NCBI RefSeq assembly: GCF_000425105.1
Contig: NZ_AULD01000005.1
Coordinates: 124,001 to 188,000 of the forward strand
Length of the DNA: 64,000 nucleotides
Source: Agrococcus lahaulensis DSM 17612
GTDB taxonomy: Bacteria > Actinomycetota > Actinomycetes > Actinomycetales > Microbacteriaceae
Direction of reading: 5' to 3'
Shown here: positions 20,179-22,632 of the stretch, piece by piece
How the letters are laid out: the number at the start of each line of letters is the position of its first letter
How positions within the stretch are numbered: position 1 is the first letter of the stretch
Position numbers and translations under genes: made by a program
Notes under the pieces: generated by a model
The model's input: the letters and a program-made list of their open reading frames with translations, nothing else
Databases searched by the model: none
Told to the model about the DNA's origin: nothing

Positions 20179-20307
20179 GCACCCATCCTCCCACGGGCGC
20201 GCTCGACGCCTTCCGACGCATCCGACCACCCGACCTCAAGCCTGCGCGCGTAGCCTGGCGCTGTCGGCCGCCGACGGCGGACGGGACGCGAACTCAAGGA
20301 GGACTTC

Positions 20308-20730
20308 ATGGCCATCACCTCGAACGCGAGCACCAGCTGGAACGGGCCGCTCAGCAGCGGCTCCGGCACGACCACGCTCGGCACCGGCTCGAGCTTCGAC
20401 CTCACGTGGAAGGCGCGCGCCGAGGAGGGCGGCGCCTCGACGCCGGAGGAGTTCATCGCGGCCGCGCACGCCTCGTGCTACGCGATGGCGCTCTCGCACG
20501 CGCTCGAGGAGGCCGGGCACGCGCCCGAGTCGCTCAGCACGAGCGCGAAGGTGTCGTTCGAGCCCGGCAAGGGCATCACCACGAGCGTCCTGACGGTGAG
20601 CGGGAAGGTGCCCGGCATCGACCAGGAGCAGTTCGCGAAGCACGCCGAGGAGGCGAAGGCAGGGTGCCCCGTGTCGCAGGCGCTGGCCGGCATCGAGATC
20701 CAGCTCGAGAGCGCCACCCTGGAGAGCTGA
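20308..20730 (+). CDS. OsmC family peroxiredoxin
   Basis: 140-residue OsmC/Ohr-type thiol peroxidase that detoxifies organic peroxides. The two reactive cysteines are Cys57 (AAHASCYAM) and Cys120 (AGCPVSQAL). The N-terminus NASTSWNGPLSSGSGT matches the OsmC subgroup. ATG at 20308 follows an AAGGAGG-like site. It is monocistronic by position and followed by the small peptide gene at 20842. Confidence 0.92.
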   Translation: MAITSNASTSWNGPLSSGSGTTTLGTGSSFDLTWKARAEEGGASTPEEFIAAAHASCYAMALSHALEEAGHAPESLSTSAKVSFEPGKGITTSVLTVSGKVPGIDQEQFAKHAEEAKAGCPVSQALAGIEIQLESATLES

Positions 20731-20841
20731 GAAACCCATCGCGCGAAGGCGGTGGATGCCTTACATTCAGCAGTAGACCCGCGCAGGGGCTAGGTCGGCC
20801 CTGCGAGGGAACCACCCACCACCACATGCAAAGGAACTCCA

Positions 20842-20958
20842 ATGGGCTTCAAGCAGCTCCCCACCCACCTCCTCCTCTCGCCGCTCGGCGAGGATGACTT
20901 CATCATCATGGGCGGAGAGGACGACTTCATCATCATGGGCGGCGGCAGCTCCAAGTAG
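20842..20958 (+). CDS. 38-residue peptide with duplicated EDDFIIMGG unit, undescribed
   Basis: Short gene with an AAAGGA ribosome site 7 bases before its ATG. Residues 1-16 (MGFKQLPTHLLLSPLG) look like a leader. Residues 17-25 and 26-34 are two exact copies of EDDFIIMGG, and the C-terminus is GSSK. Third codon positions are almost all G or C, as in real genes here, and the two 27-base copies differ only at synonymous sites. There is no Arg or Cys and no secretion signal. It is flanked by its own leader and a strong hairpin. It resembles a modified-peptide precursor or multi-copy signal peptide, but no maturation enzyme is adjacent. Function unknown. Confidence 0.7.
   Translation: MGFKQLPTHLLLSPLGEDDFIIMGGEDDFIIMGGGSSK
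20890..20943 (+). repeat. 27-base tandem repeat inside peptide gene
   Basis: Two adjacent 27-base copies (20890-20916 and 20917-20943) encode EDDFIIMGG twice. They differ at the Asp codon (GAT/GAC) and the last Gly codon (GGA/GGC) only, both silent, which suggests selection on the peptide after duplication. Confidence 0.9.
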
Positions 20959-20973
20959 CCTGCCCCCGACGGT

Positions 20974-21014
20974 CGCGGCCGCGGCCCCGACAGCAATGTC
21001 GGCCCGCGGCCGCG
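20974..21014 (+). terminator. Strong hairpin terminator after peptide gene
   Basis: CGCGGCCGCGG at 20974-20984 pairs with CCGCGGCCGCG at 21004-21014, and CCGACA at 20987-20992 pairs with TGTCGG at 20997-21002 around a GCAA loop. It starts 16 bases after the peptide stop and precedes the convergent agmatinase end. There is no T tract, as usual in actinobacteria. Confidence 0.8.
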
Positions 21015-21035
21015 CTGCGTCCGGAGGCCTTCCGC

Positions 21036-21971
21036 TCAGCGCGACGGCGGCGGGATGAGCGCGAGCAGCTCCCACACCGCGTGCGCGGCGGCCAGCCCCG
21101 TGATGCCGGCGTGGTCGTGGGCCGGGAGCACCTCGACGACATCGCCGCCCACGATGTCCAGCCCGCGCAGGGCTCGCAGCACGCCGAAGAGCTCTCGCGT
21201 GCTGATGCCCGCGACCTCGGGCGTGCCGGTGCCGGGCGCGTGCGCGGGATCGAGCACGTCGATGTCGATCGACACGTAGACCGGCCCGGTGCCGAGACGG
21301 GCGCGGATGCGCTCCGCGAGCTGCTCGGCGGAGCTGCGGGCGAAGTCGTCGGTGCGGATGATCGCGAAGCCCGCGCGCGCGTCGTCCTCGAGCTCGCTCG
21401 GGTCGTAGATGCCGCCGCGGATGCCGACGTGCTGGCAGTGCTCGAGGTCGAGCAGCCCCTCCTCCGCCGCGCGCCGGAACGGCGAGCCGTGCCAGATGCT
21501 CGCGCCGTGCAGCGTGTCCCAGGTGTCGAGGTGCGCGTCGAAGTGGAGCACGGCGAGCGGACCGTGCCGCTCGGCGGCGGCCCGCAGCAGCGGCAGGGCG
21601 ATCGTGTGATCGCCGCCGATCGCCACGACGGTCGTGCCCCGCTGCACGAGCGCCCGCGCCTGCTCGTGGATCGCCTCGACGGCGGCCTCGATGTCGTAGG
21701 GGCCGACCCGCAGATCGCCGCCGTCGACCACCTGGCGATCGCGGAAGGGGAACGAGTCGTGCGCCTGGTGGTAGGGGTGCAGCTGCCTGGAGTGCTCGCG
21801 CACGTGCGCGGGGCCGAAGCGCGCGCCGGGCCGGAAGCTCGTGCCCGAGTCGAACGGGATCCCGACGACAGCGACATCCGCGTGCTCGACCTCGTGCAGC
21901 TGCGGCAGCAGCGCGAAGGTCGCAATCCCCGCGTAGCGCGGCAGCCCCGGGTCGTCTCGCTGACCGATCAT
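21036..21971 (-). CDS. speB: Agmatinase/arginase family ureohydrolase
   Basis: 311-residue binuclear manganese hydrolase of the ureohydrolase family, most like agmatinase (agmatine to putrescine and urea). Metal-binding motifs are GGDHT (119-123), DAHLDT (145-150) and SIDIDVLDPAHAPGTGTPE, all intact. ATG at 21971 is chosen, though an in-frame GTG and ATG lie farther upstream. It is convergent with the small peptide gene and divergent from the 22129 gene. Other guanidino substrates are possible. Confidence 0.88.
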   Translation of the reverse strand: MIGQRDDPGLPRYAGIATFALLPQLHEVEHADVAVVGIPFDSGTSFRPGARFGPAHVREHSRQLHPYHQAHDSFPFRDRQVVDGGDLRVGPYDIEAAVEAIHEQARALVQRGTTVVAIGGDHTIALPLLRAAAERHGPLAVLHFDAHLDTWDTLHGASIWHGSPFRRAAEEGLLDLEHCQHVGIRGGIYDPSELEDDARAGFAIIRTDDFARSSAEQLAERIRARLGTGPVYVSIDIDVLDPAHAPGTGTPEVAGISTRELFGVLRALRGLDIVGGDVVEVLPAHDHAGITGLAAAHAVWELLALIPPPSR

Positions 21972-22128
21972 GTCGCCTCCCCATCCGGCGCGCTCGGCGT
22001 GGACGACCGGGCCGGATGCGGTCGCTCCCGTCGTGATCATCGCACGCGTCGCGATCGAGCCCGGGCGGCCCCGCGGCCGGGTGCGGACTCCCGGCCGCGC
22101 GCGAGAGAATGGTGGAGGAGGTGCGGCA

Positions 22129-22632
22129 GTGGACGACGAGGGCATGCAGGGCGACGGGGCGATGGCCGCGATCGAGCGCTACGCGCGACGCGCGGAGCGC
22201 ATCGGCCGCATCGCCGCCGACGAGCGCACGCCGCACGAGGAGGCGCACGAGATCGCCCGCGCGACCGCGGTGCTCGCCGCGCGCGACCACGGGCGCGATG
22301 CCGCTCGGGCGCGGCTGCGCCGCTCGCCGCTGCTGCACGGCCTGTTCGGCGTCGTCGTGCTCATCCCCGTGGTGAGCGCATTCTTGCCCGACGGCCGGGG
22401 ACTCACCCTCTTCTCGCTGCTCTCGCTCGTCTACGTCGCCGTGCACGTGGCGGAGCTCACGGTCGGCAGCCCCGTGCACCGCTTCGCCGGCCGGCTGCCC
22501 GCCGCGGTGCAGCAGTTCCTCTCGCCCCACCAGGTGCTCTTCGAGCAGGCGGTGCTGCACGCCTACACCGAGCGGAGCCGCGAGACCGGAGCGGTCGGCT
22601 GCTCGTGCGGTGTGCACGACGACGCGCCCTGA
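22129..22632 (+). CDS. Membrane protein with Cys/His tail, unknown function
   Basis: 167-residue protein with a charged N-terminal half, about two membrane segments (LLHGLFGVVVLIPVVSAFL and LTLFSLLSLVYVAVHVAEL) and a C-terminal GCSCGVH that could bind a metal. GTG at 22129 is preceded by GGAGGAGG. No family recognised. The 157 bases to the divergent agmatinase gene hold both promoters. Confidence 0.65.
   Translation: MDDEGMQGDGAMAAIERYARRAERIGRIAADERTPHEEAHEIARATAVLAARDHGRDAARARLRRSPLLHGLFGVVVLIPVVSAFLPDGRGLTLFSLLSLVYVAVHVAELTVGSPVHRFAGRLPAAVQQFLSPHQVLFEQAVLHAYTERSRETGAVGCSCGVHDDAP

Follow-up and report, generated by a model that had tools for sequence, protein, structure and literature searches.

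The window analysed here, i.e., the whole stretch of 64,000 nucleotides from Agrococcus lahaulensis DSM 17612, contains an osmC-like gene (20308..20730, plus strand; Pfam PF02566) and, next after it on the same strand, a 38-residue peptide gene (20842..20958) that translates as MGFKQLPTHLLLSPLGEDDFIIMGGEDDFIIMGGGSSK followed by a stop codon. Its N-terminal part, MGFKQLPTHLLLSPLG (20842..20889, plus strand), is leader-like. Two exact copies of EDDFIIMGG follow at 20890..20916 and 20917..20943 (both plus strand), carrying the conserved hexapeptide DDFIIM at 20893-20910 and 20920-20937, respectively. The 27-base copies differ at two sites (GAT/GAC and GGA/GGC), both silent, and G or C occupies the third position in 36 of the 38 codons. 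A Shine-Dalgarno-like AAAGGA precedes the gene at 20830..20835 (plus strand), and most relatives have GGAG or something similar there when aligned by eye. The original prediction, made from the letters of this DNA, had described the frame with its two exact repeats, the leader-then-repeat layout, the silent-only differences, the almost pure G/C third positions and the gene's own ribosome site, all of which we confirmed.

After the stop codon, a strong G+C-rich hairpin is located at 20974..21014 (plus strand), and a similar inverted repeat lies 3' of the gene in the 17 aligned homologues (by eye). The fold of 20956-21030 had a minimum free energy of -50.3 kcal/mol (z -4.33), which none of 200 shuffled sequences equalled. 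As the hairpin has no T run and a terminator scan of 20300-21500 returned no site, we only infer its role as a probable terminator; of the "strong hairpin terminator" predicted earlier, the hairpin itself is what stood. The peptide gene probably forms its own transcription unit just after osmC. The tail FIIMGGGSSK (20926-20955) looks like a strand and the start of a Walker A motif, a likeness that is probably due to chance because relatives beyond the window's own type do not have it.

Nine proteins encoded in the window between 17211 and 25802 were scanned against Pfam. Seven gave a match (FKBP, OsmC, arginase family, histidine phosphatase, FAD oxidase, alkylguanine methyltransferase, and LytR family) and two did not. 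No maturation enzyme was found among the seven matched proteins, in line with what had been noted from the sequence. An FKBP homologue is located upstream of osmC in eight of nine relatives' loci; the ninth, L203, has little upstream DNA. In loci L132 (2083-3882) and L202 (5305-7077), the FKBP gene is separated from osmC by an extra membrane-transporter-like gene, which we take to be Na+/H+ antiporter-like from its translated sequence and which the window does not have. The downstream side varies more than the upstream side: the window and L131 have an arginase-family gene there, and L203 has other genes. An unnamed open reading frame (window 22125-22632) directly follows the peptide gene in G020 and G002, and the sequence downstream in G014 is presumably CstA-like, as recognised from its translation.

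Occurrence and variation in Agrococcus

Homologues of the peptide, 32-38 residues in size, were found in 17 of 24 Agrococcus genomes. Searching 60 relatives with the 38-mer identified 13 Agrococcus genomes, among them that of the window, at E < 0.001, and a match in G001 at E 0.28 proved to be a real homologue. The rest of the matches up to E 10 lay inside frames of at least 208 aa; the seven genomes without a homologue gave no match, or one in a frame of at least 981 aa.

The OsmC protein had a match in 22 of the 24 genomes, and in 17 of these 22 a member of the peptide family is the next gene after osmC on the same strand; osmC is thus the upstream neighbour in all 17 peptide-carrying genomes. 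Five genomes (G003, G009, G013, G021, and G023) contain osmC and have no ATC-ATC-ATG-like stretch within 600 bases downstream. Both genomes in which no osmC was matched are incomplete (G010, 65% complete; G015, 86%). In a nucleotide tree of osmC, i.e., a single gene with several weak nodes, the five non-carriers split from the 17 carriers with a local support of 0.99. Judging from this split, the peptide seems to have been gained once, or lost once at the base, and retained thereafter.

All 17 members contain one to three units of the motif D-x-[F/W/D]-I-I-M. The peptides of G016 and G022 have the same sequence as that of the window; these two and G019 were omitted from one alignment, which comprised 14 of the 17 homologues. 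The hexapeptide is DDFIIM in eight genomes, DDDIIM in seven, DGWIIM in one, and DPWIIM, as a single copy, in one. Two copies are present in 15 of the 17 genomes, three in G001, and one in G017, and the 16 genomes with more than one copy each repeat their hexapeptide without change. In the single-copy peptide (G017, L035), the first copy seems to have lost WIIM and still keeps the matching DP; two copies are consequently not strictly required. The units are 7, 8, 9, 11 or 13 residues apart and therefore do not form a regular array. Three unlike N-termini occur: QLP[T/I]HL in 13 homologues, KP[S/G]RR in two, and RPNKNDLS in two, so that the stretch common to the majority is replaced in four. The net charge is -5 to -3 in 15 genomes (-4 for the window peptide) and +1 in both W-type members, and the acidic character that had been ascribed to the repeat unit is hence not a general trait of the family.

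The silent GAT/GAC difference between copies 1 and 2 is kept in four DDF genomes (G000, G016, G020, and G022), which argues against very recent copying in these four. In seven further multi-copy genomes the first two copies are the same base for base, and homogenisation of the copies may have taken place in such genomes.

Upstream of the gene, the segment CCTTACATTCAGCAGTAG (20759..20776, plus strand) is a possible promoter or operator. By eye, an exact or near copy is present in G012, G014, G016, G020, and G022, and the segment recurs in this way in the other genomes of the QLP/DDF type. Instead of it, a TATAAACAGAGRTGACGGG-like stretch is found in G007 and in six of the seven genomes of the DDD type, and G014 has a form of both. 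A promoter shared with other genes was rejected: with up to three mismatches, the TATAAACAGAGRTGACGGG-like pattern was confined within the genus to the peptide locus, occurring once each in eight of the 24 genomes. A sigma-70 scan upstream of the peptide gene returned no site.

Selection on the reading frame

Substitution patterns were compared among seven DDD-type relatives. Both GDDDIIM motifs had zero nonsynonymous difference, with synonymous values of 0.26 and 0.31 per site; outside the motifs, nonsynonymous change amounted to 0.16 per site in the leader and 0.31 in the spacer. As far as substitutions can tell, this demonstrates that selection acts on the motifs and leaves leader and spacing free.

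The pooled nonsynonymous/synonymous ratio of the plus coding frame was 0.30, the lowest of the six frames in the seven DDD genomes (other plus frames 1.62 and 1.50; minus frames 1.16, 0.46, and 1.22). Of 33 third codon positions, 17 varied, vs eight first and seven second positions. Stop codons break the other two plus frames in 12 and 15 of the 17 homologues. The minus frame with the ratio of 0.46 has the same wobble positions as the plus coding frame. It contains internal stops in eight of the 17 homologues, five of them only at the extreme end, and because its body is interrupted in only three (G006, G018, and G019), the case against it is weaker than that against the other four. Retention of the ATG, the ribosome site and the stop codon favours the plus frame over this one. 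Frame, start and stop are retained across all 17 genus genomes, and two or three copies of the repeat occur in 16 of them, with a single copy in the other. The original prediction had named loss of frame or repeat in homologues as grounds for abandoning it, and its claim of a real gene was borne out; together with the ratio of 0.30, these comparisons identify 20842-20958 as a real gene.

This bears on the possibility that the locus is a regulatory RNA or a minus-strand gene and that the plus-strand frame is incidental, which we regard as very unlikely. The strong hairpin at a conserved place and the wobble-sharing minus frame would agree with it. Yet the variation concentrates at third positions, the plus-frame ratio is the lowest, and start and stop are retained in all 17 homologues. 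Moreover, none of four Rfam hits reached the gathering score, and 20770-20960 folds no better than shuffled sequences (z -0.54).

Comparison with known families and peptide classes

Among the collections scanned, the peptide is so far known only from Agrococcus. An alignment search of 398 genomes of the same family, taken to be Microbacteriaceae (10 of Agrococcus), yielded 24 matches with E values up to 0.5. Eight of them, with E values near 1e-14 or lower, were genus members; translation of the remaining 16 (E 0.08-0.47) revealed no D-x-x-IIM motif. A Gly-Asp motif pattern, which depends on a Gly codon and overlooks the type found in the window, matched 26 of the 398 genomes, four being genus members in a short open reading frame and the remaining 22 lying in open frames of at least 138 codons. 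A double-motif scan of genome contigs, which requires ATC/ATT codons and two copies and which single-copy relatives escape, returned 112 stretches, nine with the N-termini of the family. One actinomycete candidate (L189) arose from reading a 710-aa frame out of register, and other matches in short open reading frames, from unrelated phyla, were discarded on visual inspection.

In viral contigs, 19 stretches were found, none with the family's N-termini or a similar short open reading frame. Several of these contigs (L227-L230, L232-L234, L236-L240, and L242) contained, in the frame that was read, arrays of a nonapeptide resembling PPLDFFIIM, and the opposite strand may be their true coding strand. 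Plasmids gave one 44% match at E 9 and no family member. The window peptide had no match in Pfam or NCBIfam, and the best matches in PHROGs (E 0.46) and among PDB sequences (E 1.9) were insignificant. In the open-access literature searched on Agrococcus precursor or small peptides, RiPPs and the motif strings, we found no description of the peptide.

We also scanned eight genomes with the motif pattern for proteins that the peptide might mimic, and no obvious candidate emerged: 16 of 20 sites were the peptide itself, and the other four were in one ClpP-like and three arginyl-tRNA-synthetase-like proteins, which we assume from their sequences. In G011 (L252, about base 1500), the ClpP-like protein has DRDIIM, which resembles the DDDIIM of the peptide in that genome, probably by coincidence.

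Nine-residue repeats rich in Gly and Asp, such as the copy in the window, are reminiscent of RTX proteins, whose calcium-binding nonapeptide repeat has the consensus GGxGxDxUx. An RTX repeat protein was rejected, given the irregular spacing (7-13 residues in relatives) and the lack of a match to this consensus. Multi-core RiPP precursors as a general class consist of a leader-like part and repeated identical units. The Agrococcus peptide resembles them in having a leader-like part, then repeated identical short units, and a hairpin after the gene. It differs in that its core is fixed and its leader variable, in that the genomes gave no match to the six domains described below, and in a motif without Cys, Ser or Thr. 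Another general kind are small bacterial proteins with short linear binding motifs, in which a conserved motif sits on a varying tether. The Agrococcus peptide shares with these its short length, the stand-alone gene, and a motif conserved on a varying tether, but its motif is duplicated and it matches no Pfam or NCBIfam family.

Aureocin A53-like leaderless bacteriocins are reported from Agrococcus sp. SL85 as well (PMC11580447). These are likewise short peptides of the same genus; the present family differs by its net charge of -5 to +1. Among the nine window neighbours scanned, two of which had no Pfam match at all, there was no PH-domain or ABC-transport match. A leaderless class II bacteriocin was rejected on the net charge of -4 of the window peptide and on the lack of a linked transport or immunity gene among these nine neighbours (two without a Pfam match).

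Possible roles of the peptide

The original prediction had proposed a multi-core precursor of modified peptides. We screened the 24 genus genomes for PqqD/RRE (PF05402), YcaO (PF02624), LANC_like (PF05147), SPASM (PF13186) and MNIO (PF05114), each at E 0.001, as well as for Peptidase_C39 (PF03412), which is associated with double-glycine leader processing. None of the six was matched in any of the 24, and the 14 control genomes were matched in three, five, one, eight, two, and eight cases, respectively. The screen covers these six domain families. As to the peptide itself, the repeated core unit expected of a multi-core precursor is present, with two to three identical hexapeptides in 16 of 17 genomes. 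A conserved leader recognition sequence is missing, as the three N-termini are unlike each other and QLP[T/I]HL is constant only within 13 of 17. Apart from the repeat, the peptide thus did not show the RiPP hallmarks looked for, and its plan is still like that of a multi-core precursor. In this sense, the proposal is partly supported: the layout held, and modification found no backing in the 24 genomes.

The peptide is probably new, with a likely binding or signalling role, and no tested family or enzyme explains it. Our preferred, still tentative reading, which we place slightly short of an even chance, is that of an unmodified docking peptide that is bivalent, its two motifs binding a single partner in the cell. 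It is suggested by identical motifs that sit on a drifting tether and change together, and by the lack of processing machinery among the tested families. The motif D-x-[F/W/D]-I-I-M would be the working part; its independent units, usually two but rarely three or one, sit on a variable tether. The peptide would remain unmodified and act inside the cell, and the twin motifs would dock as a bivalent ligand onto one partner, either a dimer or a protein with two like sites. The IIM stretch could possibly be added to the partner as a beta-strand.

The evolution of the repeat does not separate bivalency from a multi-core precursor because both predict the same pattern. In the latter case, enzymes encoded elsewhere in the genome would free the repeats, with or without modification, to serve as a peptide signal or natural product. 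In favour of such a precursor are the tandem repeats, which are identical within a genome and vary in concert from group to group, a copy number of one to three, variable spacers, the leader-like N-terminus and the hairpin after the gene. Nonetheless, we regard this main alternative as less likely than bivalent docking, since none of the six tested domain families was matched in the 24 genomes, no signal peptide is apparent by eye, and the hexapeptide lacks Ser, Thr and Cys. Furthermore, the leader is not conserved family-wide and the motif is fixed, the reverse of the usual RiPP, and neither a maturation enzyme nor an exporter was found among the seven Pfam-matched of the nine window neighbours (two had no match). 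That the peptide gives rise to a new Agrococcus signal or natural product, with repeats excised by an unlinked, unrecognised system outside the common RiPP enzyme families, appears to us improbable.

Still less probable is a stand-alone beta-structured mini-protein, i.e., a beta-meander or self-assembling strands in which the repeats are structural rather than binding. A single-sequence AlphaFold model of the window peptide contains three strands (residues 10-14, 19-24, and 30-34; best pLDDT 81.7, pTM 0.47; five models 63-82), which take in both FIIM stretches and some of the leader. However, the model of a DDD-type relative computed with an 8-row alignment had low confidence (pLDDT 55.4, pTM 0.17), so that no fold is established, and the best Foldseek match in the PDB had E 2.6. 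The spacing of 7-13 residues and the lack of the first-strand stretch QLPTHLL in four members also argue against a defined mini-protein. Finally, an attenuator-type leader peptide, which would sense charged tRNA through its Ile-Ile-Met codons ahead of a terminator hairpin, would fit a short frame with ATC ATC ATG runs and a hairpin directly after it, and the same unnamed open reading frame is the next same-strand gene in the window, L131, G020, and G002. We hold this to be the least credible of the explanations. A convergent arginase-family gene precedes the unnamed frame in the window and in L131, and the frame was not found near the peptide in L132, L152, L177, L199, L202, L203, and L209, some of which end soon after. 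With the CstA-like sequence following in G014, there is no conserved co-directional target, and the D and aromatic positions are also under selection.

The gene is named by none of the libraries searched, yet it is kept in all 17 sampled members of one Agrococcus clade. Its hexapeptide copies stay identical while leader, spacing and charge drift, and the family offers a clean natural test of a short functional motif. A bivalent regulator would make its partner a control point specific to the clade, and a precursor would imply a maturation route beyond the usual enzyme families. In either case, the peptide is small enough for direct synthesis and testing.
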